A stretch of 20,392 bases of DNA from a virus, in the IMG/VR virus record IMGVR_UViG_3300032207_000403, positions 1 through 20,392 of that record; one strand, 5' to 3'. Below the pieces are notes generated by a model. It ran no database searches. It was not told the origin of the DNA and was given only the letters and a program-made list of their open reading frames with translations. Made by a program: the position numbers and the translations under genes. Positions 1-18,700 of the stretch are shown in pieces. Each line of letters opens with the position of its first letter. The first letter of the stretch is position 1.

Positions 1-3000
1 CTTTAACTGGTATTAATACTATTGGTATTACTACAGAAAATAATTCTGGAGTAATGAAATTTAGAACTACAGAGAAGAAGCTAAAGATTGATAGAATTAA
101 TGTTCTTAACCCTGGACAAGGATATTCTAATAGAAAACTAGTTGTTCAGTCAAGTGGTATTAGAACTGAATATGATACAGTTAACTTTGATAATCATAAC
201 TTCTCTAATGGTGATATTGTAGAATATGAATTCTCAGACACTGCTGTTTCGGGATTATCATCGGATACAAAATACAAGATTTTAGTCGTAGATAGTGATA
301 CTTTTAGACTGGCTAATGCTGGAACTGCTGGAACAGATGTAACTAATTTCAACAGAGGTAAATTTGTCAATATGACAAATGTTGGAGTTGGTAGTCATAT
401 CTTTAAATATCCAGATGTGGCTGTAACCATTAGTGCTGTAACCACACAACAACAAGAGGGTACATTTACAGCAACACCTGTTATTCGTGGTCCAATTGTT
501 GATGCTTATCTCTACGAACCAGGAACTGATTATGGATCTGAGATTTTAAATTTTGAAAGAACTCCTGAAATTGAAATTAACAGTGGAAAAGGAGCTGAAG
601 TAAAACCAGTTGTTCTAAATGGTAGAATTGATAGTGTATTTGTTCTTAGTGGTGGTAGTGGATATACTTCACCACCAGAATTAGTAGTTCAGTCAAATGC
701 AGTAGGAATTGCCACCACAGGTAGTGGTGCTAGACTGAGAGCACAGATAAACAGTGCTGGTATAGTAACCTCTGTAGTCGTCTTGAGTGGGGGTGTAAAC
801 TACGATGCCAATACAACTGTCATTAGGGCAGATTCTGTCGGTTCTGGGGCAAATCTGAATGGTTTCGTAAGACGTTTACGTGTCAATAAGTTTGCTAAAA
901 ATAATAATAACAGTGGTGAGATTATTTCACCAACACCTGATCAAGGTCTTGAATATGCTGCTATTGGATATGGTATAACTTTAAGAGATGCTTTTGAAGA
1001 TAGTGGATCTTTCCACTCACCATTGATTGGATGGGCATATGATGGAAATCCAGTTTATGGATCTTTTGGATATAATGATCCAGAAGATATTCAGAGTGGA
1101 ACCAGAAGAATGGAATCTGGTTATGTACAAAGTATCACTCATATTGAAAATAGACCTAGTTCTGTAACTTTCCCAGCAGGTTTCTTTGTTGATGACTTTA
1201 AATTTAACAACTCTGGAGATCTTGATGAGTTCAATGGTAGATTCTCTATTACCAATGAATTCCCACAAGGTGTGTATGCTTATTATGGAACTATTGATTC
1301 TTCTAACAATCCAGAATTCCCCTTCTTTATTGGAAATTCATTTAGATCAAAGGCGATTAGTGAAAATATAAATCCAGCTGATAAAATTGATCAGTCTTTT
1401 GATTTTAATAATTCAAAACTTATTAGAAATACTTTCCCACATAAAATTGCTCAACAACAGTCTGCTTATGACTTTGTTATTGAACCATATAAGATATTCC
1501 CACAAGATTCAATTGTTGATGACTTAAGTAGTGGTTCTGTTGACTTTATCAGTGTTGCCTCTACAGGTAATGCCAGATATGCTGTTGGGGACAACATTAA
1601 CTTTGATGAGACAGAGGTTGGGACAGGAGTTGCTGCTGAAATCAGTAGAATTAATGGTAGAACTATTACTAGCATTGCCTCTACAGAAGAAACATATGAA
1701 AACGCTATTGTAACTTGGAAAAATGATTCCACGGTAGAAGTTTCCATTAAACCAAACTTTGATTTATTGGATAATGATATTGTTCAAGTTACTGGATTAT
1801 CAACTTTCGTTGCTGGTCTTAACGGATCTCAAGAAGCTGGAATCGGAACTAATCAAGCAAAATTAGTTGTTGGAGTTGGATCAACAGGTGTCAGTGGTAT
1901 GGTAACTGACATTCAAGTTTCTTTTGTTCCAGTTTCTTTTGGTAGTTCGATTACAGTATCGAATGAAACCATGGGTATTTTGAATGTCTTTGAGGCAGAT
2001 GGAATATTAAGAGTTCAAAGATATGCTAATGAATCTGGCATAGCTCATACTGCAACTGAAAATGTCAATTTCTTACCTCAAAGGTTTGAAATAAAAATCA
2101 ATACACCTTATTTCCAATCTAGAGAACAGGATGAAATTTTCTTCAATCCATTTGAAGTTGTTGGTATTGGATCTACAGCAGGTATTGCCACCACAAGATC
2201 TTATCAGTTCAATGGAATTACTACAATAAGATCTATTCCAACACAATCTATTTTCTTACAAAATCATCCATTTGTAACTAATCAAGAACTTGATTTTACA
2301 GTTGGATCTGCTGCTGGAGCAATTGGCATTTCAACTTCCCCATCACAATCTCAATTCGATATGCCAAGCGTAGTTTATGCTGTTGTATCAAGTAAAGATC
2401 ATGTTGGTATTGCTACGGTATTGAATGGACCCAGTGTTTTCTTCCGTGACGTTACTGGAACTGATTCTTATGATTATAAGTTAACTACAAAATATCCACA
2501 AGTTACTGCTGATATCAAGAAGATAAAAGCAACAGTAACCACTGGAGAATCTCATGGACTTGTTAATGGTGATAAAATTGAATTAAACGTAAAACCAGGT
2601 ATAACGACTGGAGTTGGTGCTGCTAGTACTGTAACAGTTAAAATTTTAGATGAAAAACTGCTGATCAATCCAGTAGCAATTAGCTCTGCCGGTGTTAATG
2701 TAACGACTAACGTCATTACTCAAAATTCTCATGGATTTATAAGTGGCGATAAAGTCTACTATGAAACTAGTGAATCGATTGGTGGTCTTACCACAGGATC
2801 TTACTTTGTATATACGGTCGATACGAATAATTTCCAACTGGCAGATACCAAGAAAGATATATTCTCTTCTCCCCCTAGAACCATCACTTTGACTTCTGCT
2901 GGTGGACATGATCATACATTCTCTTTGATCAATCCTCCATTAGAAATCTTTAAAAACAACAATGTAGAATTTAACTTATCAGATTCTACTCTTACTGGAT

Positions 3001-6000
3001 ATAACTTTAGAATATATTACACTGATGATTATAAGAACAGAGTTGTATCTACAGGATCAACTACTGAATTCTTAATTACAGAATTTGGCACTCCAGGAAC
3101 AGTTGGTGCTGGAGTAACTTTAGAATATTCTGATAATTTCCCATCCATCTTATATTACAATCTTGAGAAGAGTGGATATATCAGCACTTCTGATGTTAGT
3201 GTTTTAAGTAATAATCAAATTCAATATTATAATAGCAAATATAATGGATCTTATAAAGTTACTGATGTAAGCAGCAATACTTTCGATGTTAATTTGAATT
3301 CTCCACCAGAAAGAGATTCTTATGTAAGAGATCAAATTGAAAAACTAGAATATACGACAGATTCTCTAACAGCAACTGGTGGAATTACCGATGTTAAACT
3401 TATATTCGAAGGTCTTGACTATAGAACAGTTCCTAGCATCTCTAGTATAACTTCTGATGAAGGTGTCGGTGCTATTTTAAGATTGAACTCAAGTAGCATT
3501 GGAAAACTTGAAGGTGTAAGACTGCTGACTCAAGGATTCTCTTATCCATCTGACAAAACCTTAAAACCTGAAGCTGCCATTCCCAATGAGTTGACCGTTC
3601 AGGACTATCAAACTCTCGATTCAGTAACAGTTGTCAGTGGTGGAAGAAACTATCTAACTCCACCTAGTTTGATTCTGTTTGATCCTGAAGAGGGAACTGT
3701 TGTTCCTGAGTTTGATGGAACAGTAGAACTAGCTGGAAGTTCTGTAAGTCCAACAACAGTCATAGATGGCGTAGAAGTTGCTGGCATTAGAATTGATAGA
3801 AATCCAGTTGGTCTTGATGATGAAAGTGTTTATAGAATTATTCCTGTAAACAATGATAATGGTGTTTCTATTGTTAGTGTTGCTTCAAGCACAGATAACA
3901 CAGTCACACTTAGTATTTCTACACCAATTTTGGGATTCTCGACAGCACCATTTGCTAACGGAGATCTAGTTTTTGTTGAAGGTATTGGTCTTGCTTCTAC
4001 TGATGGTCAGGGTCACAACTCATCTGACTATGATTATGCTTATTTTACAATTACAAACTATAATAGTTCTGCTAATCCCAATACTCTTACATATAGCCTT
4101 TCTAGTTTTGTTTCTGGGGGAAATAATACTGGTATTGCAATCACAAATCCAGGATTCTTTGCTAATGTAATTAAAAAGGACAATTTGGCAGAATTTTCTA
4201 TTCAAAGAAAATCATCTACATTTATACCTGGAGAAGCATTATTCTTGAATGATGATTTTGTCATTGGATCTGTTGATCTCTTTGTAAGTAGTTTCAATGA
4301 TTTGACTGGTAAATTGAATGTCACTGGAATTACACCAATTAAAGTTGGTGATAGACTAACTGGTTCTGTAAGTGGATCTAGATGTACAATTTCTGATTTG
4401 AGCAGTAAAGTTGGCAGATTTAATGTAGATTCTACTTCTAAGTTCACTAAGGGTTGGAGTAACGAAATTGGATTCTTAGATGAGGATTATCAAGTAACAT
4501 CTGATAATGACTACTATCAGAGAATGTCATATTCTGTTCAAAGTGTAAAATCGTTTGACGATGTTATCAGTTATGTGAATGATATTGTTCACCCAGCTGG
4601 ATATAGAAACTTCGTTGACATGCAGATAGACCCAACTGGTAATGTTGGTGCTTCTTTCACCACTGCTCAGGAAGATCCTTTCTTGGTCATTGATGTTTAT
4701 GATGGAGCAAAGAGAGTAGATTCGGTAAATGATTTTGATTATGTTAGAGATGTTGATGCTACAACTAACACTTCTAAATCTATAGAATTTGAAAATATTA
4801 AAGTCAGTGATTTTATCCTGAACAAATCAAACAGAGTTCTTTCTATTGATGATATTAGTGACAATTTCTTAAATGAAAACTCAGAAGACTTGATTGACTT
4901 TACTGATACTGGTGAGTGGACTGAAGGTAGACAAACTAATAAGTTTATTGTTCAGACAGTTGATGCTACAAATAGCAATGAACTGTCCCTGAAAGAAATT
5001 GTTCTGATAACAAATAATCAAGACACCTTTGCCTTGGAAAAGGTTGGTCTTGGTGATAGTGTTGGAGAATTTGATGGTGTTTATGATTCTGATGATAATC
5101 AATATAGTTTGAGATTCACTCCATTTGAACCATACAATACTGATTATGATATTAAAATATTACAAACATTCTTTGATGATACTACAGCAGGTGTAGGGTC
5201 GGCGAATGTTGGATTTGTTGATTTAATTTCCTCAACAGACACTGTTTCTGCCGGAGCATCAGCAACCGTTATTGGATTCAGCACTTTACATACCGATAGC
5301 ATATATTCCTCTGTAGAAGTTTATGATAGTTTGACAAATGATATTGATTACTATGAATTAGTATTGTCCCATAGTGCTGGTGACACTCATTTGACGGAAC
5401 TGGCAGCATTTAACACTAGAGTTTCTCTTTCGGGATTCTCTGGTCCATTTATTGGATCCTTTACTTCATCTATTGATTCTGGTGTTGTTACACTTTCATT
5501 TACTAACAATGGATCTAATGATGTAAGAATAAGAACTCAAACTGTAGGAATCAATACTAGTGGTGCTGGAATTGGAACATACAGATTCAAATTTACAGGA
5601 ACAATAGATGGTTCTGAAAGAACTGCAAGACTTGAGTCTGGTATTTCCACTACAACTAGTGGTGTTTCTACAAGCATCTTGGGTATTAGTAGTATTACTG
5701 ATGCTTCTGTTAAATCAACTGTAAAAGTTGCCATCGGTGAAACACAAGCGATTCACCAAGTTTACGTTGTAAACGATGATCAAAGAAAGAACCTTTATAT
5801 TCTAACTTATCCTTTCTTATCGATTGGTAGCACTAGTGGAGTTGGTACTTTCGGAGTTGATTATGGTGTTAACAATATCATTGATGTTAAGTTCTATCCA
5901 GACATTACTGGTGATGTTGATATCAAGACTTTCAATGAGATTGTTTATAGAGATCTTGATAACAATGGTGGTGTTAGTGGAATCGGTGATCTTACGTATG

Positions 6001-9000
6001 GAAATGTTAGATCAAATGTAGCTCAAGTTACTTACTTTGGTATTAATCAAAGAGAAGTATTGGAGTTTGATGCCAAACATAATTCTGTAGATATTTTTGC
6101 TAAAACTTTCGACCCAGATTCTTCTATTCTTAGACCTTCTGATGGTGTATTTACCGTAGAGCATTATTTCCAAGACGGTGAAGAATTAAGTTACACTCCT
6201 GGTAGCAACTTGGTTGGAGTAGCTGCCACTGGACTTGTTTATGATACTGGTGTTGGCACAGCCAGACTACCACAAACAGTTTATGCTATTAGAGATAATG
6301 CTTCTCAATTTAGAGTTGCTATTACCACTGCTAATGCCATAGCAGGCACAGGTGTTACATTTACATCTGTTGGAACGGGCAATAAACACGTTCTTTCCAT
6401 GGTTAAGAATAAGGAAAAGGCAATAATCAGTATTGATGGTATTGTTCAATCTCCAATTAGTAAAACTTCGCTTGATTTTACACTCACAAATGCTATAGGA
6501 GCAGGAGCAACTATTTTTGAACTGAGTGGAATTTCTTCCATTAGACCAAATGATTTGCTCAAGATTAATGATGAATATGTCAAGATTAATATTGTTGGTT
6601 TGGGCAGCACATCAGACGTTGGTGTTGCTGCGGATGGTGACATTCCTCTCGTAGAGGTTACAAGAGGATTTGTTGGAAGTAGTGCTACCTCTCATAGTGC
6701 TGACGATGCCGTTAGTGTTTATCGTGGAGCATTCAATATCGTTGATAGCAAAATTCATTTCACATCTGCTCCAAAAGGTGCTGGTAGACAAGATTTGGAC
6801 GAAAGAGGTTTAACCATACCTAGATCTTCTTTCAATGGTCGTGTTTATCTAAGAAAGAATTATGATAGCAATTTAATCTTTGACGATATCTCTGATCAAT
6901 TTGATGGAGTTACTTCTAGGTTTAGATTGACATCTATTGGCACTGATGTAACTGGCATCGGATCTACTGGAGGAAATGGATTAGTTTTAATCAATGGTAT
7001 TTTCCAAGCACCTTCGACTCCAAATAACACAAATAATAATTTCTCAATTATAGAAAATGCTGGTATAAGCAGTGTTGTGTTTACTGGTATTTTGTCAGCT
7101 GCCGGTGGTCAAATTGTTGATGAAACTGATATTAACCTAAATCAACTTCCAAGGGGTGGAGTTCCTATTTCGTTTGGTTCGACAAATGGATTGGGATATG
7201 CTCCAATTGTCCCAGCTGAAATTGTCGCTACGGCAACTAATGGTGTAATTACTGAAGTCACTGGTATTCCAACGACAGGAACAACAGTCAATATTTCTAC
7301 AGCTGCCTATGATAATCTGACAGGTATTTTGACAGTTACATCAGATGGAAACCATACACTGAATGTTGGTGACAAAATTAACTTTAGTGGACTAGAGTTC
7401 TCCTGTCCATCTGAATCTCCTTTCCACAATGTCTATGTTTTCCCATCTGAACAAGGAGTTAACTTTACGATTAGTTCTTTCGATTATGATAACAAAACAG
7501 GCATTGCTACTGTTGGATTAACTTCATCCCACAACTTTAGTATTGGTAGATATGTTGATCTGTCGAATATTGGATTCTCTTGTACTCTGCCACATGCTGG
7601 AGTAACTACAACTACTTTCCCCGATGGAAGTTCGGGCAAAAAAGCAATTGGTGTTAACACAAACAGATATCCAATTCTTGGAATTGCTGGCACGAATAAA
7701 TTCGTCGTTGATGTCGGTGTTTCTACAATTGCCCATACTTACACTGGATCTGGAGCAACTGCTGGAAATGCATTTGAGGTCAAACCAGCTGGTCCATATT
7801 ATGTTGATGAAATTATTTCAGCAACACAATTCAAGTCTCAGGTAGGTGTAGTTACATTTGCTCATACTTATGTTGGTAGTGGTAACTTTGCCAAGTGGAC
7901 AACTGCTAACTTTGGTAGTGGATATGTAACCGTTCCTGGAGTTGCTGTCACAGATATTGCTTTTGAGCATAGATTTGTAAGTGCTGGTGTTGGATCTATC
8001 AGACAAACAAGTTTTGATGGAACTGCCTTCACTGCCACTGGAGCAACTTATGATTCACCAACAGGACTTTTGGTTCTGACTATCCCAAGTCATGGATTAA
8101 CTACTAGTAATTCTATTGGAATTGATACTGGTGGTATTGTATTCACATGCTCCTCTGATGATTTTAGATCTTTGAATCCATATCCAAGATCAACAGATCC
8201 ACTTGCTGGAATCATAACCTCAATTCTTTCTGTAACCACAAATACAATCACTATTGATGCCCATCCTGGTGGTGGTGCTGGTACAGGTGCCGAAGTTACT
8301 GCTACAGTAGGTGCTGGTGGAACAATTGCTGTTTCGATCGTTTCTGGTGGAACTGGATATGTAAATCCAAGAGTTTTCGTTGATTCTCCAAGTTATGAAA
8401 ATCTTCCAGTTACTGGTATTTCTAGACTTGCTATTGGTAATACCTCAGAGACTGGTATTGGAATGTCGGTAACTATCGACGTTATTGGTATCAATACATT
8501 CTTCCAAGAAAAACCAATTGTAAACTTTGAATATGACGAAACCACTGGTCTTGCCACAGTAACAGCACCAGATTTTAAACCTAGACTTAATGAGTTTATA
8601 CAACTGAGAAATATCAGTTTTGCATGTACAGCACCACACGCTGGTGTGACCACAACCATTTTCCCAGATGGAACTCAAGGATTTGATTATCGTGTTCTGT
8701 CTATCGATTCAGATTTACAACAATTCACTACAAATGTTGGAATTAGTACGATTGCTCATACTTATGAAAGTGGTGGAATTGTAAGATCTGGTATTGGTGC
8801 TACTCTGTTTGAAATTAAGGAGTTTAGAATTACCAAACCAGGTTATGCTTTTAGAGCCGGTGATAAGGTGACTGTCGTTGGACTGGCAACAGATCCTAAC
8901 GTTGGTGACAATTTCCGACAGTTTGAGATTGAAATCCTTGATACATTTGAAGATACATTCTCATCTTGGCAATTTGGTGAACTTGATTACATTGATGACA

Positions 9001-11096
9001 TTAGTGCTCTTCAAGATGGACTAAGAGCTAGATTCCCATTATCATACAATGATCAAACATTGAGTTTTGAAGTTGATAAGAATGATCCTGATTCTGCCTT
9101 AATTGATCTCGAATCTCTATTGATTGTGTTCATCAATGGTGTTTTACAAGAACCTGGCACAGCATACAACTTTGATGGCGGCACATCAATTGTGTTTACT
9201 GAACCACCAGTACCACAGGACAAAATATCTATCTTCTTCTATAGAGGTAAGGTTGGTACAGATAGTCTGTTCACTAATATCAATGAGACAATCAAACCTG
9301 GTGATGACATCTTTATAAAGAGAACACCTTTGATTGAATTTGGATTAGCACCAAATACTTTAGAAAATCGTTCTCAAGAGTCCACCAGAACAGTTATTGG
9401 TATTACTTCTTCCAGTGAAACCGAAACCACTCTCTATAGAGGTGAGGGTGTTAATCAGGTAACCAATAAACCAATCATTTGGACCAAGCAAAAGGTTGAT
9501 AAGATATTGAATGGTGAATTTATTTCAAAAGAAAGAGATTCAATTGAGGCTCAAATTTATCCAACAGCAAGTGTGATTAAAAATGTTACAACTAGTGACA
9601 CACAAATATTTGTTGATGATACATCACTGTTCCTTGGTGTTGATGGAACAGATACTAATTTTGGTGGAGTGCTTCAAACTGGTATTGCTACTGTTGGATT
9701 TGGTTCTACCGAAACCATCAATATTGAATCTGTTGGTGGCATCACAAATCTTGAAGTTGAGGGATACACTGGTCTAATTACTGGCATCACAACATCTGCT
9801 GCTAGATTGGAAGAATTCTTCCCATTTGATGTTACCAAGGCAACTCCAAATGACAGAGTTGACGTATCTACAGGTATCAACACAGCAGTCTCTATAGCAG
9901 TTAAGGATGATGGTTCTAGCATCTTTGCTGCTGGAGCCGGTGGAACGATCACTGAATATACAATGTCAACACCACACAAAATCAATACAGCAGTTATCAA
10001 TAATAGCAATACTATTGATATTCGTAGTAGTGTTACTGAACTGTATGATATCTACTTCCTTGCTGATGGAACTAAACTGTATACAGTTGGCAAAGGTGCT
10101 CAGGCACCGTTTGTAACTCAATTAAATCAATTTGATTTAGGCACTGCTTGGGATCTTACATCAATTGCAGCAACTGGAGTTAGCACAGAGATTTCAATTG
10201 CCAACCAAACTCAGGCACATAGAGCAATGGTTGTTACTGGAGTCGGTCGTACAGTTTATACACTTGATCCAGCTACTGCTACTTTCTATCATTATCAACT
10301 TACAATTCCATATGACATTACCTCACTTGGATATGTACAAAATCACACCATTGTAGATGATAATGCTCCATATGACTTCTCAATCAGTCAAGATGGATCT
10401 AAGATGTTGATTGTTGGTGGTGAAAATGAACAAATTATTGAATTTGATTTGTCTACTGATTATGACATAACCACTGCCGTTGGTGTTGAAACCTCCACTA
10501 TTGGTGTTGGTATTCCTACAGCACTGACAATTCAAACTTCATCTGCCGATGGTGACAGGGCATATGTTCTTAACACCACTGGATTTACTTCTCAATATAA
10601 CTTGAGTATTCCTGCTGAAGGTTTGGGAATCGTATTCCAATTGGATCTTCAGGATGTTCCAACAGAGATTGAAAGGCAAAAACTTTTGCCTGGATATAGA
10701 ATTGTAGTTTCCGATACTGGAGTTGGAACTGGACTGACTACATTGGTTGGATCGGCAACATCTGTTGGTATTGGTACTACAAATGTGATTGGTATTTCTA
10801 CAGATAAACTTGATAATGTTTATGAATTGTATTATGCTAATATTTCTGGAACGGTTGGACTTATCACATGTTATGTTGATCCAGACACTAACGTAGTTGG
10901 TGTTGCTACAACTGGTTCTTACTTAGAACCTGCTGGTAAGATATCATGGGGACGTATCTTTGGTATTGACAGAGCATCTACACCATTAGAATTCTTCTCC
11001 GATGGTAATGCTTTTGAAGTTGGTCTTACAACTTATCCTACATTCCAAAGAAGAGACGTTGGTCTCAGAGACACAGGTGCTCTGAGCAAGAGGTAA
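1..11096 (+). CDS. Giant tail/baseplate structural protein at the gp7 locus (5' partial)
   Basis: The frame is open from the first complete codon at nt 3 (Leu-Thr-Gly-Ile-Asn...) and has no stop before the first Met at nt 54, so the true start is almost certainly upstream. At least 3,697 codons are in the window. The protein is acidic, rich in Gly, Ser, Thr, Val, Ile and Asn, and has only six cysteines. No membrane segment is obvious. Visible modules in order: V-x-x-G-G-x-G-Y repeats (102-803), a YHYH-like domain (about 1014-1370), H-G-x-x-x-G-D repeats (about 2530-2850), a DYYQ...HPAG core resembling T4 gp7 (about 4200-4640), NG-x-x-Q repeats, a cysteine-marked repeat array (7308-8840), a beta-propeller-like stretch (about 9888-10610), and a C-terminal tail with SWGRIFGIDR and YPTFQRRDVGLRDTG. 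It lies directly upstream of gp8, the slot of gp7 in T4, whose product is only about 1,030 residues. I infer a hugely expanded baseplate wedge or peripheral tail protein. A fibre-like adhesin is the alternative. Confidence 0.9.
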   Translation, partial: LTGINTIGITTENNSGVMKFRTTEKKLKIDRINVLNPGQGYSNRKLVVQSSGIRTEYDTVNFDNHNFSNGDIVEYEFSDTAVSGLSSDTKYKILVVDSDTFRLANAGTAGTDVTNFNRGKFVNMTNVGVGSHIFKYPDVAVTISAVTTQQQEGTFTATPVIRGPIVDAYLYEPGTDYGSEILNFERTPEIEINSGKGAEVKPVVLNGRIDSVFVLSGGSGYTSPPELVVQSNAVGIATTGSGARLRAQINSAGIVTSVVVLSGGVNYDANTTVIRADSVGSGANLNGFVRRLRVNKFAKNNNNSGEIISPTPDQGLEYAAIGYGITLRDAFEDSGSFHSPLIGWAYDGNPVYGSFGYNDPEDIQSGTRRMESGYVQSITHIENRPSSVTFPAGFFVDDFKFNNSGDLDEFNGRFSITNEFPQGVYAYYGTIDSSNNPEFPFFIGNSFRSKAISENINPADKIDQSFDFNNSKLIRNTFPHKIAQQQSAYDFVIEPYKIFPQDSIVDDLSSGSVDFISVASTGNARYAVGDNINFDETEVGTGVAAEISRINGRTITSIASTEETYENAIVTWKNDSTVEVSIKPNFDLLDNDIVQVTGLSTFVAGLNGSQEAGIGTNQAKLVVGVGSTGVSGMVTDIQVSFVPVSFGSSITVSNETMGILNVFEADGILRVQRYANESGIAHTATENVNFLPQRFEIKINTPYFQSREQDEIFFNPFEVVGIGSTAGIATTRSYQFNGITTIRSIPTQSIFLQNHPFVTNQELDFTVGSAAGAIGISTSPSQSQFDMPSVVYAVVSSKDHVGIATVLNGPSVFFRDVTGTDSYDYKLTTKYPQVTADIKKIKATVTTGESHGLVNGDKIELNVKPGITTGVGAASTVTVKILDEKLLINPVAISSAGVNVTTNVITQNSHGFISGDKVYYETSESIGGLTTGSYFVYTVDTNNFQLADTKKDIFSSPPRTITLTSAGGHDHTFSLINPPLEIFKNNNVEFNLSDSTLTGYNFRIYYTDDYKNRVVSTGSTTEFLITEFGTPGTVGAGVTLEYSDNFPSILYYNLEKSGYISTSDVSVLSNNQIQYYNSKYNGSYKVTDVSSNTFDVNLNSPPERDSYVRDQIEKLEYTTDSLTATGGITDVKLIFEGLDYRTVPSISSITSDEGVGAILRLNSSSIGKLEGVRLLTQGFSYPSDKTLKPEAAIPNELTVQDYQTLDSVTVVSGGRNYLTPPSLILFDPEEGTVVPEFDGTVELAGSSVSPTTVIDGVEVAGIRIDRNPVGLDDESVYRIIPVNNDNGVSIVSVASSTDNTVTLSISTPILGFSTAPFANGDLVFVEGIGLASTDGQGHNSSDYDYAYFTITNYNSSANPNTLTYSLSSFVSGGNNTGIAITNPGFFANVIKKDNLAEFSIQRKSSTFIPGEALFLNDDFVIGSVDLFVSSFNDLTGKLNVTGITPIKVGDRLTGSVSGSRCTISDLSSKVGRFNVDSTSKFTKGWSNEIGFLDEDYQVTSDNDYYQRMSYSVQSVKSFDDVISYVNDIVHPAGYRNFVDMQIDPTGNVGASFTTAQEDPFLVIDVYDGAKRVDSVNDFDYVRDVDATTNTSKSIEFENIKVSDFILNKSNRVLSIDDISDNFLNENSEDLIDFTDTGEWTEGRQTNKFIVQTVDATNSNELSLKEIVLITNNQDTFALEKVGLGDSVGEFDGVYDSDDNQYSLRFTPFEPYNTDYDIKILQTFFDDTTAGVGSANVGFVDLISSTDTVSAGASATVIGFSTLHTDSIYSSVEVYDSLTNDIDYYELVLSHSAGDTHLTELAAFNTRVSLSGFSGPFIGSFTSSIDSGVVTLSFTNNGSNDVRIRTQTVGINTSGAGIGTYRFKFTGTIDGSERTARLESGISTTTSGVSTSILGISSITDASVKSTVKVAIGETQAIHQVYVVNDDQRKNLYILTYPFLSIGSTSGVGTFGVDYGVNNIIDVKFYPDITGDVDIKTFNEIVYRDLDNNGGVSGIGDLTYGNVRSNVAQVTYFGINQREVLEFDAKHNSVDIFAKTFDPDSSILRPSDGVFTVEHYFQDGEELSYTPGSNLVGVAATGLVYDTGVGTARLPQTVYAIRDNASQFRVAITTANAIAGTGVTFTSVGTGNKHVLSMVKNKEKAIISIDGIVQSPISKTSLDFTLTNAIGAGATIFELSGISSIRPNDLLKINDEYVKINIVGLGSTSDVGVAADGDIPLVEVTRGFVGSSATSHSADDAVSVYRGAFNIVDSKIHFTSAPKGAGRQDLDERGLTIPRSSFNGRVYLRKNYDSNLIFDDISDQFDGVTSRFRLTSIGTDVTGIGSTGGNGLVLINGIFQAPSTPNNTNNNFSIIENAGISSVVFTGILSAAGGQIVDETDINLNQLPRGGVPISFGSTNGLGYAPIVPAEIVATATNGVITEVTGIPTTGTTVNISTAAYDNLTGILTVTSDGNHTLNVGDKINFSGLEFSCPSESPFHNVYVFPSEQGVNFTISSFDYDNKTGIATVGLTSSHNFSIGRYVDLSNIGFSCTLPHAGVTTTTFPDGSSGKKAIGVNTNRYPILGIAGTNKFVVDVGVSTIAHTYTGSGATAGNAFEVKPAGPYYVDEIISATQFKSQVGVVTFAHTYVGSGNFAKWTTANFGSGYVTVPGVAVTDIAFEHRFVSAGVGSIRQTSFDGTAFTATGATYDSPTGLLVLTIPSHGLTTSNSIGIDTGGIVFTCSSDDFRSLNPYPRSTDPLAGIITSILSVTTNTITIDAHPGGGAGTGAEVTATVGAGGTIAVSIVSGGTGYVNPRVFVDSPSYENLPVTGISRLAIGNTSETGIGMSVTIDVIGINTFFQEKPIVNFEYDETTGLATVTAPDFKPRLNEFIQLRNISFACTAPHAGVTTTIFPDGTQGFDYRVLSIDSDLQQFTTNVGISTIAHTYESGGIVRSGIGATLFEIKEFRITKPGYAFRAGDKVTVVGLATDPNVGDNFRQFEIEILDTFEDTFSSWQFGELDYIDDISALQDGLRARFPLSYNDQTLSFEVDKNDPDSALIDLESLLIVFINGVLQEPGTAYNFDGGTSIVFTEPPVPQDKISIFFYRGKVGTDSLFTNINETIKPGDDIFIKRTPLIEFGLAPNTLENRSQESTRTVIGITSSSETETTLYRGEGVNQVTNKPIIWTKQKVDKILNGEFISKERDSIEAQIYPTASVIKNVTTSDTQIFVDDTSLFLGVDGTDTNFGGVLQTGIATVGFGSTETINIESVGGITNLEVEGYTGLITGITTSAARLEEFFPFDVTKATPNDRVDVSTGINTAVSIAVKDDGSSIFAAGAGGTITEYTMSTPHKINTAVINNSNTIDIRSSVTELYDIYFLADGTKLYTVGKGAQAPFVTQLNQFDLGTAWDLTSIAATGVSTEISIANQTQAHRAMVVTGVGRTVYTLDPATATFYHYQLTIPYDITSLGYVQNHTIVDDNAPYDFSISQDGSKMLIVGGENEQIIEFDLSTDYDITTAVGVETSTIGVGIPTALTIQTSSADGDRAYVLNTTGFTSQYNLSIPAEGLGIVFQLDLQDVPTEIERQKLLPGYRIVVSDTGVGTGLTTLVGSATSVGIGTTNVIGISTDKLDNVYELYYANISGTVGLITCYVDPDTNVVGVATTGSYLEPAGKISWGRIFGIDRASTPLEFFSDGNAFEVGLTTYPTFQRRDVGLRDTGALSKR
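102..803 (+). repeat. V-x-x-G-G-x-G-Y beta-repeat modules, N-terminal cluster of giant protein
   Basis: Three copies of a short motif of the form hydrophobic-L-[NS]-x-G-x-[GN]-Y are encoded at 102-125 (VLNPGQGY), 642-665 (VLSGGSGY) and 780-803 (VLSGGVNY). The first two are each followed by a stretch ending in LVVQS. Further copies lie at 3630-3653 (VVSGGRNY) and 8340-8360 (VSGGTGY) in the same protein, at 11943-11966 in gp8 and at 18040-18063 and 18181-18201 in the DUF4815-type protein. The copies are related at protein level and have diverged in codons. Such motifs recur in marine phage structural proteins. Their role is not known to me; a beta-strand/turn unit is my inference. Confidence 0.7.
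1014..1370 (+). other. YHYH-like domain within the giant tail protein
   Basis: The encoded segment begins HSPLIGWAYDGNPVYG and continues through FPAGFFVDDF and then LDEFNGRFSITNEFP, GVYAYYGT and PEFPFFIGNSF. This order matches the YHYH domain family: a GxAxDGxPIYG element, a D-x-x-NGR/H element, a G-x-Y-H-Y-H-x-T element, and a FPyxIG end. The distinctive histidines of the third element are replaced (Y-A-Y-Y), while a His remains just before the first element. YHYH domains are known in secreted bacterial and marine proteins, and I recall them in cyanophage virion proteins. The function here is unknown; loss of the paired histidines argues for a purely structural role. Family assignment rests on motif order only. 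Confidence 0.65.
4200..4640 (+). other. gp7-like core segment (DYYQ...HPAG) of the giant protein
   Basis: The segment reads FIPGEALF, then NDLTGKLNVTG, VGDRLTG, DYYQRMSYSVQS (from nt 4509) and IVHPAGYRNF (His codon at 4590). T4 gp7, as I recall it, has near its C-terminal end a similar succession: LVGQTIY, SNGKLQWTV, IAGQEV, RSYYVMKIKS and FVHPVGFGF. In both, a tyrosine pair is followed about 25 residues later by HP[AV]G plus an aromatic. With the gp8 neighbour, this supports the whole giant protein being the functional equivalent of gp7, with the conserved core buried near the middle of a much longer chain. This is an inference from short motifs and synteny. Confidence 0.5.
7308..8840 (+). 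repeat. Cysteine-marked beta-repeat array (four copies) in the giant protein
   Basis: Four degenerate protein repeats begin at the Tyr codons 7308, 7485, 8049 and 8532. Each starts with a Y-D-x-x-T-G-[IL]-x-T/V-V element and has one Cys in the context F-[SA/T]-C, at 7404, 7581, 8148 and 8625. The Tyr-to-Cys spacing is 32, 32, 33 and 31 residues. Copies 2 and 4 also share HAGVTTT-x-FPDG (7593-7628 and 8637-8672) and G-[VI]-STIAHTY further on. An extra half repeat (VVTFAHTYVGSG) follows copy 2. Copy 1 is shortened after its Cys, and copy 3 has a different second half carrying a V-S-G-G-T-G-Y module. The protein contains only six cysteines, four of them at this one repeat position. Confidence 0.8.
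9888..10610 (+). other. Beta-propeller-like repeats near the C terminus of the giant protein
   Basis: Five imperfect units follow the pattern [FIV]-x-x-D-G-x-x-[IMLA]-[FYL]-x-x-G ... [IVT]-x-[EQ]-[FY]-x-[LM]-[ST]-x-P/D-[YH]-[DK]-I. The DG positions fall at 9909, 10065, 10392 and 10548, with a degenerate unit (VG) at 10242. Intervals are 52, 59, 50 and 52 residues. This repeat length and the order DG-then-YxLSxPYDI are characteristic of YVTN/WD-like beta-propeller blades found in many phage and bacterial surface proteins. Five blades are recognisable; degenerate flanking blades could complete six or seven. A binding or scaffold role on the particle surface is inferred. Confidence 0.55.
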
Positions 11097-11135: not shown

Positions 11136-12719
11136 ATGTCTGCTATAATCACGGATCAATTTAGGATTTTGAACGCTAGTAATTTTGTTGCTTCGGTGGC
11201 AAATACAGCAAACTCATATTATACATTCATGAGTTTATCAGATCCTACTACTGCTGGATTTGGTAGGACATCTACATGGAATGATTCTGGTGGTCCTCCA
11301 TTCCCAACTGACAATATTAATTATTCTAACCATGTGTATGACACAATGCTGTTTGGCAAACGTGTTACATCTGCTAATACTAGAAGATTGGTTAGAAAAG
11401 TAAATTGGGTTCAAGGATCTACCTATGATTATTATAGACATGACTATAGTTCTACAAATCAATCTCAGGTAACTAACTCCAATAGACTTTATGGAGCAAA
11501 TTATTATGTGGTAAATAGTGAGTTCCGTGTTTATATTTGTTTAGATAATGGAACGGCAGCAGGAATTTCTACTGTTCCATCATCGTCTCTCGATGAACCA
11601 ACTTTTACTGATGTAGAACCAACTAGAGCAGGTACTAGTGGTGATGGATATCTCTGGAAGTATCTTTACACTATTAGTCCTAGTGACATTGTTAAGTTCG
11701 ACTCTACAGAATACATTACTGTTCCAAATGATTGGTCAACAACCACTGACGTAGGAATTCAAGCTGTTAGGGATAACGGTAACTCTGAGATTAATAACAA
11801 TCAAATTAAAGTTGTTGCAATTGATGATCCTGGTCTTGGATATCCACAATTTACTGCTAGGGAATTTGATATTCTTGGTGATGGAACAGGTGGCAAGGTT
11901 AGAATTACAACCAACTCCTTAGGTCAAATTATTGAAACTCAGGTTACTGCTGGTGGTGCTGGATATTCATTTGGTAGAGTGGATCTTTCTAGTGAAAACT
12001 CTGGTATTCAAACAGCAACTGCTGCTTTTGCTACATTGATTCCCATTATTCCACCATCTAAGGGACATGGGTTCGATGTCTATAAGGAACTGGGTGCTGA
12101 TAAGGTTCTGATGTATTCCAGATTTGATAATTCTTCTTCTGATTTTGCTTCCGATACTGTATTTGCCCAGGTTGGAATTGTTCAAAACCCAGCATCATTT
12201 GGATCTGACAGTATATTTACTGATAATCAGTTCTCTGCTTTATATGCTATCAAATACGAATCCCAGAGTTCTGCTCAGGATTTAGTAGTTGGTGATAAGA
12301 TTGAACAAACAGTTGGTGTAGGATCTACTGCTAGAGGAATCGTAGCTTCTTACGATACAAACACAAAGATTATCAAATACTACCAAGACAGAAGTCTTTA
12401 CTTCAACCCTGCTTCTGGTGGTCAAAAAGATAACTTTGGTGTTAACTTTAGATCACCAGTTATTGACTTTACATCAAGTGCAAATGCCATCACAAAAACT
12501 GGTGGTTCATTTAGTGTAAACGTAGATCAAAACTTTACTGGAATTACAACCACCTTGGCATCAGGAAAGGTCGTCAACCTTGGCGTTCAGTTCACAGATG
12601 GTCTTGCTAATCCAGAAATAAATAAGAGGAAAGGTGAAATCATCTACCTTGATAATAGACCTTCTGTAACCAGGAATGAAAGACAGAAGGAAGATGTTAA
12701 AATCGTATTAGAGTTCTAA
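11136..12719 (+). CDS. gp8: Baseplate wedge protein gp8
   Basis: The 527-residue product matches T4 gp8, a dimeric component of the six baseplate wedges, at several landmarks (T4 sequence from memory). These are an N-terminal YYTF...PPFPTDN segment (about residues 28-62; T4 has ITFG...APPYPTD), GDGYLWKYLY at 169-178 followed by EYITVP (T4 GDGYVWEYLF...EYIVVP), FAQVGIVQNP in the second half (T4 FRQISIITNP), and GEIIYLDNRP at 500-509 close to the C terminus (T4 GEMIYMENRP), ending in VKIVLEF. T4 gp8 is 334 residues, so about 190 are extra; part of the excess lies around 250-290 and contains a V-T-A-G-G-A-G-Y module. The start ATG has only a weak AGG at 11127-11129 as ribosome site and is preceded by a late promoter. 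The next gene begins 4 nt after the stop. Confidence 0.88.
   Translation: MSAIITDQFRILNASNFVASVANTANSYYTFMSLSDPTTAGFGRTSTWNDSGGPPFPTDNINYSNHVYDTMLFGKRVTSANTRRLVRKVNWVQGSTYDYYRHDYSSTNQSQVTNSNRLYGANYYVVNSEFRVYICLDNGTAAGISTVPSSSLDEPTFTDVEPTRAGTSGDGYLWKYLYTISPSDIVKFDSTEYITVPNDWSTTTDVGIQAVRDNGNSEINNNQIKVVAIDDPGLGYPQFTAREFDILGDGTGGKVRITTNSLGQIIETQVTAGGAGYSFGRVDLSSENSGIQTATAAFATLIPIIPPSKGHGFDVYKELGADKVLMYSRFDNSSSDFASDTVFAQVGIVQNPASFGSDSIFTDNQFSALYAIKYESQSSAQDLVVGDKIEQTVGVGSTARGIVASYDTNTKIIKYYQDRSLYFNPASGGQKDNFGVNFRSPVIDFTSSANAITKTGGSFSVNVDQNFTGITTTLASGKVVNLGVQFTDGLANPEINKRKGEIIYLDNRPSVTRNERQKEDVKIVLEF
12617..12624 (+). promoter_or_regulatory. Candidate internal late promoter (AATAAATA) in the 3' end of gp8
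   Basis: AATAAATA occurs inside gp8, 100 nt before the ATG of the DUF4815-type gene. It differs from TATAAATA only at the first base, a position I recall as relaxed in marine T4-like late promoters. The codons concerned encode Ile-Asn-Lys, so coding constraint alone could explain it. It would give the downstream gene its own late transcript. Confidence 0.3.
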
Positions 12720-12723
12720 TAAA

Positions 12724-15700
12724 ATGCCACAACAGACTAATCTCAACGTCAATCCATATTTTGACGATTTTGACGCTGATAAGGATTATTATCGTGTTCT
12801 CTTCAAACCAGGATTTCCTATCCAGGCTAGAGAACTAACGACTCTACAATCGATTTTACAGAATCAACTTGAAAACTTTGGTAGTCATATTTTCAAAGAA
12901 GGTTCCATTGTTATTCCTGGCAATGTTACTTTTGATAACCAGTATTATGCTGTAGAAATTACAGCAACTCATCTGGGAACAGATGTAAGTGTTTATATTG
13001 ATAACTTTGTAGGCAAGAGAATTATTGGACAGGAATCTGGTGTCACAGCACAGGTTCAGTATGTCCTTCCTCAGAGTCTATCCGAGAGGAATAATGTAAC
13101 TCTCTACGTAAAATTCATCAATTCTGCTACAAATTATAGTTTTGATGGATTTACTGATGGTGAAAATCTTGAGGCATTAGAACCAGTCGATTACGGTAAT
13201 ACAACCATTCCTGCTGGTAATACTTTTGCCACATGTATTCCAGAAGATACTAACTCTATTGGTGCCGCGGCACATATTGGTGATGGCATCATGTTCCTTA
13301 GAGGAACATTTGCTAGAGTAACAAAACAGACTATTTTACTTGAGCAGTACAGCAATCAACCATCATATAGAGTTGGATTGACGGTATCGGAAACTTTAGC
13401 AACTGCTAAAGATGATCCATCTCTCTATGATAATGCTAAAGGATTTTCTAACTATACTGCTCCAGGTGCTGATAGATTAAAAATCACCCTTACTTTATCT
13501 AAAAAAGTATTAGATGACACGACAGATGTCAATTTCATCGAACTTTTAAGAGTAGAAAACGGTGAAATAAGAAAAATTATCAAAGGGTCTCAATATAATA
13601 TCATCCGTGATTATTTTGCAAAGAGAACTTTTGATGAGTCTGGTGATTATTCTGTAGAAGACTTTGAATTCGATTTATACAATTCTTTAAATGATAGAAC
13701 TGGTAATGATGGTCTGTATTTTTCAAATCAGTCAACTCCACAAGGAAGCACCCCTTCCGATGATTTAGCTTTGTTAAAAGTCGGTCCTGGAGTTGCTTAC
13801 GTCAAGGGATATGACGTTGAAAAAAATGGCACAACAGTATTAGACGTTAAAAAAACTAGAGATACTAAAAAAGTAGAATCCTCATCCGTTGATTTTGAGA
13901 TGGGGAACCTTGTTAGACTCAATCGTGTCAATGGAATACCAGAATTCACTGGAACAGTTGAACTATATGATCAAAGAAGAGATAACACTGGTGTTGGTGT
14001 TGGAACACAAATTGGTCAAGCAAGAGTTTATACAGTAAGACCAGAATCTGCTGTTGGTGTTGTTACAGATGCCAGTACATTTGATTGCTATCTCTATGAT
14101 CTTCAAACATACACTAAACTTCAATTAAATGCTACAGTCGATGCTGGTGAATTACCAGCAACTGCCTATATCAAAGGAAACGGTAGTGGTGCTAGTGGAT
14201 ATGCCACTGTTGTAGGATCTGGAAAATCAGAAGTTTTCCTGAGACAAACTGCTGGCAAATTTGTTGTTGGTGAATCTATCACTATCAATGGTATTACGAC
14301 TGTTCCAAGAACCATTGATTCTGTAACTCAGTTTGGATCTGGTGATATCCGAATGTTGTATCAGAACAGTGCTGCTTTATCTGGATATTCTACAGATTTC
14401 ATGGCAGACGTTGTTCTTGATTTTGATACTCCATTTAATTACAGTGTAGCAGATACACTTTCTATCAATAATAATGGTATTACTACCTCTCCAGGAAATA
14501 ATTTTGTAAACTTCAAAGTTGGTGATATTATTAGATATCAGAAACCACAGGCTCAAGAGGTAACATTTAACAGAGTAGACTCTATTTCTGTTGGTGGTAC
14601 ATTTATGACGTTATCTGCCGTTGATAACGTTCAAGATGTTTGTGAAGGAACACTTCCAAGTTCTACAACAACCACTCAATTTAAATTGGGTAGAAGTAGA
14701 GTAAGAAATGAAGAAGAGGCATATCTTTATGCTCCAATTGACGATGGTAACATTGCCACAGTTGATTTCTTGGGTTCGGATCTTAAAGCAGTAGTTCAAG
14801 TTACTGGTAAAACCACTAATGCAAGTGGTGTGTTGACACTACAAACATCAGATATCACTGATCTTACGGACATTGTATTTGATGCTTTTGATGAAGACAG
14901 ATATGTCATCATTTATAGTGATGGTCAAATTCATCCATTGACTTCTGACCAAGTTACTGTGACTTCAAACACTGTAACTTTCAACTCTCTGAGATTTAGT
15001 GAGTCGAATATTGTTGTAGTTGCCACTATTAGAAAAACTTCTATTCAGAATAAGAAGAAAGTTTATAATCGTGTAAGAACTGTAGAAATTAGCAAGTCTA
15101 AGACTAAACAGTCTGGAACTGATGCCAATACCAGCAATAGTGATGGATTGGATTTCAATGTATTCTATGGAACTAGAGTTCAGGATAAAGAAATTTGCTT
15201 GAATTATCCTGATGTAGCAAATGTTTTTGCTGTATATCAATCTCTTGACGATGTTACTGTAACCTTAGATACTCTGAACTTCTTCACTAATTCTGAGATT
15301 AATGACAGTGTAATTTTAGGCGAAAATGTTATTGGCAATGACTCTGGTGCCGTTGCTAAAGTAGTGACTAAGGGTGCTAATACTATCACCTTCGTTTATT
15401 TGAACGAAAATACTTTTAATACTCAAGAAAATGTAATTTTCCAAGAATCTAATGTAATTGGTCAAATTCAGTCGTTTGTTCCTGGAAGATATAACGATGT
15501 CTCTTCCTTCTTCGATTTAGATAAGGGACAAAAAGATCAATACTATGATTATTCCCGTCTCATTAGAAGAGATGGATATCCAGAACCAACAAGAAAGTTA
15601 TTTGCTATTTTTGACCACTATACAGTGCCATCAAATGATGAGGGTGATATCTTCACTGTCGATAGTTATGATGCTGAAAGATTTGCCAAGGATATTCCAG

Positions 15701-18700
15701 TCATTGGTCCAAATATGAGAAGGGCTTCTGATACATTGGACTTCAGACCTAGAGTTGCCACATTTGATCCAGATACAGCAACTGCTTCTCCATTTGACTA
15801 TAATTCTAGGGTATTTACTAATCAACCAAAACTTTTACTTGCTTCGAATGAAAGTTCGATCATTGGTTACAATTTCTACGTACCTAGAATTGATAGACTG
15901 TATCTTAACAAACTAGGAAATTTTGTTTATGTTGAAGGCGTAGCTGATAGAAATCCAAAACCACCAGAAAAGGTTGGTGATGTAATGTTATTGGCAGAAA
16001 TTAATTTGCCAGCATACTTGTATGATCCAGATACTGCTGATATCACTAGTATCGATAACAGAAGATACACAATGCGTGATATTGGTAAGTTAGAAGATAG
16101 AATTGAAACTTTAGAGCAACTCACATCTCTCAACTTACTTGAAGTCCAAACACAATCGTTGCAAGTAAGAGATGCCACAGGACTGGATAGATTTAAGAGT
16201 GGAATCTTTGTTGATGACTTTAAGAATTCTGATTTTGTAGATGATTCTTCTACAATGCTTCCAGATACTGGACTTTTGATTCCATTTAGAGATGCTGCCA
16301 CTGTTGAAGGACTTCTCTCTAGTGCTAACAGTGTTCCAGATGATGAAATCGACTTGTCAATTGATTTTGATCTGTTGGATTCAAATGTACAGAAGACTGG
16401 TAAATTAGTAACACTTAAGTACAACGAAGTTGAGTTTTTAAATCAACCACATGCTACTAAAGTAGAGAACGTAAACCCATTTGCTGTTGTTCTGTACAAT
16501 GGTAGTGTTACATTGAACCCACAGCAGGATTTCTGGGTCAGAAGACTTTGGAGACCAGCTCGTATTAGCATGATCCCCAATCCAGGTCGTCGTGGACAAT
16601 CATTTGGTGGAACAAGAGTCGTCTCTAATAGAGCCGATGTCTTTATGAGATCTAGAAACGTAAGTTTCGAAGCAGTCGGACTCAAACCAAACACAAGATA
16701 TTATCAGTTCTTGGATGGTAACGGAGCCGTTGATTTTGTTCCCAAACTTCTTGAAATTCAAGATCTGTCTGGTATTTTCCAAATCGGAGAAACTGTAATC
16801 GGAACAATTGGTGATAATGACGTTGAAATCTGTAGATTCAGACTTTGTAGACCAGATCACAAGAAAGGTCCTTTTGCTGCTCCTACAACCTCTTATACAA
16901 ACAATCCATACAGCATAGACACTGTTCCACCAGAGCAGTATTCTTTGGCAACTACTTTCCTGAACATCGATGTTCTGGCAATGTCTCAGAATGCCCTAGG
17001 ACAGTATCGTGGAAGAGTTGAACCTCAGATGAAGGTCAAGGGTGTTAACAGTGGTGCTCAAGCTGTAGTATCTGATGTCAGACTCCTCTCTGATAATGGT
17101 GGTGATCTCCTTGGTTGTTTCTTCCTTAGAAACCCATTAGCAAGACCAGCACCAACCGTAAGAATTAGAACAGGTACTAAAGAGTATAAACTTACCAACA
17201 GTCCTACCAATGCCGAACCATTACCAGGTAGTAAACTAATTTCTACAGCAGAAACTACTTATACTGCTAATGGTAGAGTTCTGGTCCTTCAGAATGTTCA
17301 GACTGTCTTCTTTGATCCTCTGGCACAATCCTTCTTAGTTGAAGATGACGGTGCTTTCATCACGTCGGTTGATGTGTTCTTTGCAAACAAAGATCCAGGC
17401 AATATTCCTGTTGAAGTTCAGTTGAGAACAATGGAGTTGGGCACTCCAACAACAACTTTAGCTTCTCCACATGCTAGGGTTTTGGTAAAACCAGAGGAAA
17501 TTACAACATCTAGAGATGCCTCTATTGCCACAAACATTAAGTTCCCATCACCAATCTATCTGGAACCAAACTTAGAATATGCTGTGGTTCTTCTTGCTGA
17601 CACAGATCAGTATGAAGTCTGGATTGCTGAGATGGGTAAGAAGACTGTTAATGCTAACGATCTTCCAGCAGCAACAGGTGTTGTTTATGCTACCCAGTAT
17701 TCCATGGGATCCTTGTTCAAGTCTCAGAACGGGTCTATTTGGTCTGCTTCACAGTATGAGGATATGATGTTTAAGCTCTACAGAGCAGACTTTACTGCTA
17801 GTGCTGGTAGTGCTTACTTCTACAGTCCAAAACTGGATGTTGGTAACAGTGGAACTAGAATTCTTGGTCAGGATCCAATCGAAACCTATCCCAGAAGACT
17901 AACAGTTGGTATTGAAACATATACATCTGGTGTAAGTGGCATCACTACACTTGCCATTGGTAGAAAGGTAACATCCGATAGCAAGAGTTATATATTTGGA
18001 ACAGTTGAGAATCAAGGTGGAAGAGTCAATGGTGTTGGAGTCTTCACTGGAGGACTGGGATATGGTCCAACCTCAGGTGTAACTTCTGTAGACACTTATA
18101 ACCTCACTGGTAATGGAACAGGTCTGAAGTTGAGTGTTACCGTTGGTGGTGGCACTAGTGCCATTACAGCAGCAACCATCGTTGCAGGTGGATCTGGATA
18201 TGTCGTTGGTGATACTGTTGGAATTGTTACTTCAGATCTCGGTTCTGGAAATGGTGCTGTAATTAACCTAACATCACTCTCTGGTGTTGATACTCTATAC
18301 CTCACAAACGTTCAAGGTGAGGGTCCAACCGTTGGAGCAGGTCTTTCCTACTATGATAACAGTGGTAGCATCAAGAGTGCCAATGTTAATGTTCTCAGTT
18401 CTAATGTAACTGGAGGAACTGTAAATGATGGTTCTTGGGCATTTGTTAATCATGTAGCACATGGAATGTATGCTGCTAATAACAAGTTAAATCTGTCCAA
18501 GGTTGTAGCAAATACACCTGTTCAAAGTCTGACAGCATCTCTTGGAGTTGACGACACAATCGTTTCTCTCGGTAGCACTGTAGGACTGGAAACATTTGAA
18601 GGTGTTTCTGTTGGTGCTGCTAACACTGGATATCTGATCGTTGGTGATGAAGTTATTGCTTATAACTCTGTTGGTGTTGGAAGTGTTGGAGTTCTTCAGA

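Follow-up and report, generated by a model that had tools for sequence, protein, structure and literature searches.

Apparent recursive self-insertion of a cysteine-marked domain in baseplate and tail proteins of marine cyanophages

Genomic context of the window

The gene content of the window (the whole stretch of 20,392 bases of a virus record that was analysed here) placed it in the baseplate region of a T4-like virus of the marine cyanophage type. Besides the three large genes listed in Table 1, the window also encodes a small virion protein and a tail-fibre assembly protein. The giant protein was assigned to PHROG 2885 (gp7-like wedge) by a profile match and by its gene order beside gp8, both of which were found. 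It resembles the T4 gp7 wedge family (PHROG 2885) of kyanoviruses in its gene order with gp8 and the VrlC/DUF4815 protein and in a match over most of the protein, but differs in the nested domains described below, which are an elaboration.

The open frame of the giant protein had 3,697 residues and was cut at the left window edge. Nucleotide 54, from which the first-pass annotation had read the protein, is not its start, as the frame of a near relative (L027) begins approximately 933 residues further upstream. This N-terminal extension adds three cysteines, so the cysteine total of the whole protein would be about nine. Within the window, the six cysteines counted earlier were all found again, four at the codons given in Table 1 and the other two at nt 4383 and 10869.

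Repeats in the window

The repeat is a domain of two halves, an N-half (YDxxTG...LxFxC) and a C-half ([FY]P...VGxSTIAHTY), and both halves of all four copies in the window were located (Table 1). YDxxTG starts were present at nt 7308, 7485, 8049 and 8532 and nowhere else in the open frame. The cysteine followed them at +32, +32, +33 and +31, in agreement with the spacing of 31 to 33 residues reported before. The earlier description of a four-copy repeat held for the four YDxxTG/Cys copies but not for their layout as a plain series, because repeat 2 sits inside repeat 1. As read from the sequence, repeats 1 and 2 make up a nest of two levels, N1[N2 C2]C1, and repeats 3 and 4 are simple copies that come after it. 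In addition, an HGLxxGDxI element that is free of cysteine and has no YDxxTG was seen at nt 2529-2585; these proteins contain several such generic relatives of the N-half.

Table 1. Genes and repeat halves located in the window.
Feature	Position (nt)	Strand	Remarks
gp7-like giant baseplate wedge / virion protein	3..11096	+	phrog_2885 baseplate wedge subunit, E=0; gp8 next; open at left window edge
Repeat 1, N-half (host domain)	7302..7412	+	HMM score 51; Cys codon 7404-7406
Repeat 2, N-half, inserted in repeat 1 (as read from the sequence)	7479..7586	+	HMM score 42; Cys codon 7581-7583
Repeat 2, C-half (HAGVTTTTFPDG...VGVSTIAHTY)	7599..7754	+	HMM score 43
Repeat 1, C-half (YYVDEIISATQFKSQVGVVTFAHTYVGSG), would close the host domain after the insert	7794..7883	+	HMM score 26; this half aligns in 36/36 N-N-C-C stretches of alignment A1
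Repeat 3, N-half	8043..8159	+	HMM score 40; Cys codon 8148-8150
Repeat 3, C-half, YPR subtype, weak	8175..8264	+	HMM score 12.6
Repeat 4, N-half	8526..8633	+	HMM score 29; Cys codon 8625-8627
Repeat 4, C-half	8643..8777	+	HMM score 60; AF2 model of nt 8511-8792 with pLDDT 91.2, pTM 0.80
T4 gp8-like baseplate wedge subunit (context)	11136..12719	+	Pfam PF09215, phrog_438
DUF4815 / VrlC-like giant virion protein (context)	12724..19764	+	Pfam PF16075, phrog_358

Distribution of the domain

The repeat is a domain of approximately 90 residues, beta-barrel-like, that belongs to baseplate and tail proteins of marine cyanophages. Searches with one repeat copy matched 79 phage records and with another copy 324, nearly all of them Synechococcus or Prochlorococcus cyanophages. 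Nested domains were also present in proteins annotated as tail fibres and as 'structural proteins'. The repeat was contained in three PHROG families, 17885, 3442 and 1276, in which 36/36, 36/36 and 34/36 members matched; these are annotated just as 'tail fiber protein' or unknown, and the annotations shown mention neither the domain nor the nesting. The motif pattern of the repeat gave no match in bacterial and archaeal genome contigs. In four loci (L118, L123, L124 and L125), lone duplicates of the first hairpin (ALYDPVTGIMTVTNQQ...AIYDPVSG) precede full copies.

Conservation of the cysteine

Profiles built from seeds that carry the cysteine are biased towards it, and two tests independent of the cysteine were therefore made, one anchored on the C-half motif and one with the cysteine column masked. 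For the first, 119 IMG/VR contigs were collected with a DNA pattern for the C-half motif VGx[ST]TIAHTY, which does not include the cysteine, and were scanned together with the named-phage loci; all 58 distinct motif-anchored N-halves had the cysteine at +31 to +34. For the second, copies scoring at least 20 bits with the Cys-masked profile were dereplicated at 70% identity, and the cysteine was present in 308 out of 318 (approximately 97%). In the other ten copies the alignment ended before the cysteine column (six), or the column held proline (three) or threonine (one). The cysteine background outside the repeats in these proteins was approximately 0.35%. The placement of the cysteine after YDxxTG is far from chance.

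An alignment of 103 dereplicated single domains showed three invariant columns, G13, C39 and P52, and no others. Rare copies that are otherwise canonical carry proline or threonine in place of the cysteine (FTP, FSP and FST, in L012, L054 and L093). Since such copies exist, the cysteine is not absolutely required for folding.

Nested order of the half-repeats

A plain tandem-repeat reading was dropped after the N- and C-halves had been searched for separately. Searched in this way, the halves ran as NNCC, NNNCCC and NNNCNCCNNCCC. The order of the halves is very probably that of balanced brackets, in which whole domains would be inserted in the loop just after the cysteine of another copy. Among distinct half-order strings no shorter than four halves, 23 out of 43 were perfectly balanced, while 2,000 shuffles of the same 43 strings gave a mean of 4.7 balanced strings and a maximum of 12. 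Among the 20 strings that were not perfectly balanced, some were truncated where the block ended, and in others a half seems to have been missed or to have diverged. The deepest block was that of Synechococcus phage S-CAM7, where 30 halves, equal to 15 domains, went eight levels deep and returned to exactly zero over 1,438 residues. This topology was common to four phages, including ACG-2014f and two metagenomic phages, at an identity of 60-77% and a length of 1,438-1,442 residues.

The spacing after the cysteine differed between hosts, in which the next N-half began a median of 13 residues past it, and leaves, in which the C-half began a median of 6 residues past it. The cysteine itself was present in 208/209 hosts and 303/312 leaves. 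Being kept equally in both, it is a feature of the domain as such, whether or not a copy hosts an insert. In the S-CAM7 protein (QLF86304.1; residues 305-1742 of the large frame in L003), the stretch in front of the insert often ends in C-x-x-Y-G or C-x-S-Y in host copies, and leaf copies read C-P-G-G-S-G-I or C-x-x-x-H-A-G-V. As hosts and leaves differ in sequence past the cysteine, it may be possible to tell from these residues which copies carry an insert.

A natural empty site was also identified. Locus L086 reads LSGIAFTC-PGGS-GITTTIFPDG at the position where L136 reads LSGIAMTC-[100 residues]-GITTSIFPDG. The two flanks were 88% and 75% identical between L086 and L136, and the net insert of 96 residues equals one whole domain. 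The host domain that is uninterrupted in L086 was split by one domain directly past the cysteine in five relatives, with a net difference of 96 residues in 5/5.

Partnership between distant halves was examined with a covariation score trained on adjacent N-C pairs only, with the linker columns excluded. In 18 of the 19 dereplicated blocks, the bracket partners scored better than partners reshuffled within the block. For non-adjacent partners compared pair by pair, the count was 169 to 79 in favour of the bracket partners, these pairs not being independent of each other. When the score was limited to the top 20 column pairs, the pairwise count was even (117 to 117); the signal came with 60 or more.

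Structure predictions

The AF2 prediction for a single N+C pair (repeat 4 of the window, scores in Table 1) showed a compact all-beta domain. The cysteine ended the strand at 29-39, and confidence was low only in the loop after the cysteine. For the nested stretch N1-N2-C2-C1 of the window, the model had a mean pLDDT of 80 and a pTM of only 0.59; the outer halves were mostly confident, their block means running from 89 to 97 in N1 and, except at its start, from 84 to 98 in C1. In addition, independently predicted phage proteins in BFVD contain the single-domain fold, with a query TM mostly of 0.80-0.91 among the best nine matches. A sequence search for relatives with a solved structure gave none, only matches at chance level.

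The best weak Pfam family, with hits in 21 out of 36 members, was the E1_FCCH beta-barrel of ubiquitin-activating enzyme (PF16190), which is weakly like the HGLxxGDxV part of the N-half. The window scored 18.2 bits against a Pfam cut-off of 29.5 bits, and the best E value among the relatives was 2.1e-7. In a Foldseek search with the nested model, Uba1/FCCH was returned with a probability of 0.99-1.00, but with E values of 0.016-0.044, and it was absent from the best 50 matches of the single-domain model. Because the score lay below the Pfam cut-off and the structural match was not repeated by the single-domain model, the domain was not filed under E1_FCCH. The likeness implies no ubiquitin chemistry.

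Pairing of the halves could also follow a domain swap, in which an N-half pairs with the C-half of another copy or another chain and not with its bracket partner in the same chain. Swapping has been reported among the recursively inserted HABAS domains of RNA polymerase (PMC11515920). The covariation favours bracket partners, a signal that swapping between identical chains would also produce; overall, a swap was judged to be quite unlikely. A coincidental bracket order, with the two kinds of half as independent mini-repeats that were shuffled in tandem, is very improbable; this reading fits the runs of N- or C-halves without an adjacent partner but not the balanced order far beyond that of shuffles, the unit-size empty site, the covariation of partners or the folding of one N+C pair as a single domain in the AF2 model.

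Role of the cysteine

The first-pass annotation had taken the strict placement of the cysteine as a sign of constraint, which was borne out by its place among the three invariant columns, and had offered three roles for it, namely metal or cofactor binding, a buried core residue and an inter-chain bond. That interpretation was supported in part, and the buried core residue fitted best: positions 30, 32, 35, 37 and 39 were hydrophobic in 100% of the 103 copies, a strict strand alternation that places the cysteine in a core-facing register, and the cysteine ends a strand in the confident model. The favoured reading, held with some reserve, is a buried structural clamp: the cysteine would sit at the foot of the insertion loop, opposite the returning [FY]P strand. 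A merely buried cysteine should drift to alanine, serine or valine more often than was seen, so a residue this nearly invariant could still have a chemical role.

Disulfide bonds linking copies or chains, which would stabilise a multimeric fibre or baseplate in oxic seawater, would account for the near-invariance of one cysteine per domain and would suit a virion that is extracellular after lysis. However, assembly occurs in the reducing cytoplasm, some of the proteins appear to have a single copy, the copies with proline or threonine lack the residue altogether, and its strand register faces the core. Such bonds were regarded as unlikely.

Binding of a metal or cofactor together with the conserved histidines (HGL in the N-half and AHTY in the C-half) was disfavoured and seems still less probable. 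Both histidines are well conserved, at 81% (HGL) and 91% (AHTY), and potential iron-binding domains have been proposed in a marine phage tail fibre (PMC11705849), which was counted in its favour. However, among the 103 copies the cysteine was kept in 19/19 without the N-half histidine (including repeat 4 of the window) and in 8/8 without the C-half histidine. Furthermore, the N- and C-halves each keep their own residue even when they lie hundreds of residues apart. A Cys-His-His metal site was rejected accordingly, the histidines being lost without loss of the cysteine and the ligands not being conserved jointly. The core-facing register, taken with the retention of the cysteine despite the loss of nearby histidines, makes a structural clamp likelier than metal binding. 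The main point that the first-pass annotation had missed is that the cysteine, judging from the sequences, marks the point at which additional copies of this domain insert.

Proposed architecture and comparison with known nesting

Taken as a whole, the observations are probably best explained by a self-nesting, beta-barrel-like domain with a port in the Cys-Pro loop and a structural cysteine. The N-half would end in the strand ...LxFxC and the C-half would begin at [FY]P, and the loop between the conserved cysteine and the invariant proline would be a permissive site for at least one complete copy of the same domain, recursively. The cysteine and the returning [FY]P strand may keep the host barrel closed with or without an inserted domain. 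An insert in a loop has both of its chain ends on the host, so that each further level should be stacked farther out, and a loop with several inserts should give a branch. Nested copies may form stalks projecting from the tail baseplate, with a branch wherever a loop carries more than one copy; the innermost copies would then be presented for host contact, and a stalk could grow or shrink by one domain. The projecting role of these stalks, suggested by the topology and the gene context, is proposed only tentatively. The fullest form of the proposal has slightly less than an even chance in our estimate: that cyanophages build projecting, branched baseplate stalks by self-insertion to eight levels, the deepest nesting known in any protein, with the invariant Cys-to-Pro loop as a universal port and with stalks extended or pruned domain by domain.

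In cyanobacterial RNA polymerase, recursive self-insertion of HABAS domains is already documented (PMC11515920), and the six-level nesting of this polymerase served as the example of complex nesting in a 2026 survey that covered 2.7 million classified domains (PMC13114784). The phage domain is similar to HABAS (SI3 of beta') in that small beta domains are present in copies of the same family, at several levels and with branching (PMC11515920, PMC13114784). It differs in its fold family and protein, in the eight levels compared with the six reported, in the fixed loop between an invariant cysteine and proline, and in nesting in many phages and in several virion proteins. The phage nest of eight levels thus appears deeper than the six-level case of the literature. 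A search restricted to open-access journal articles gave no description of the nested insertion, the fold or the repeat in phage proteins.

With 15 copies of one domain, eight levels and one port, and with the topology kept as identity falls to 60%, a single phage protein would present nesting in an extreme and simple form. The outermost domain cannot close until approximately 1,400 residues later, which raises a question of folding. As the invariant cysteine would mark the port, its role is directly testable. Finally, nesting would explain the jumbled appearance of half-repeats in the giant proteins and would supply a grammar for their annotation.

In locus L013 (P-SSM2), a stretch of approximately 4 kb at 13724-17779 contains the repeat and has no annotated gene in the record. 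The locus tag PCMG_00301 is skipped there, and the repeat matches fall in two frames.
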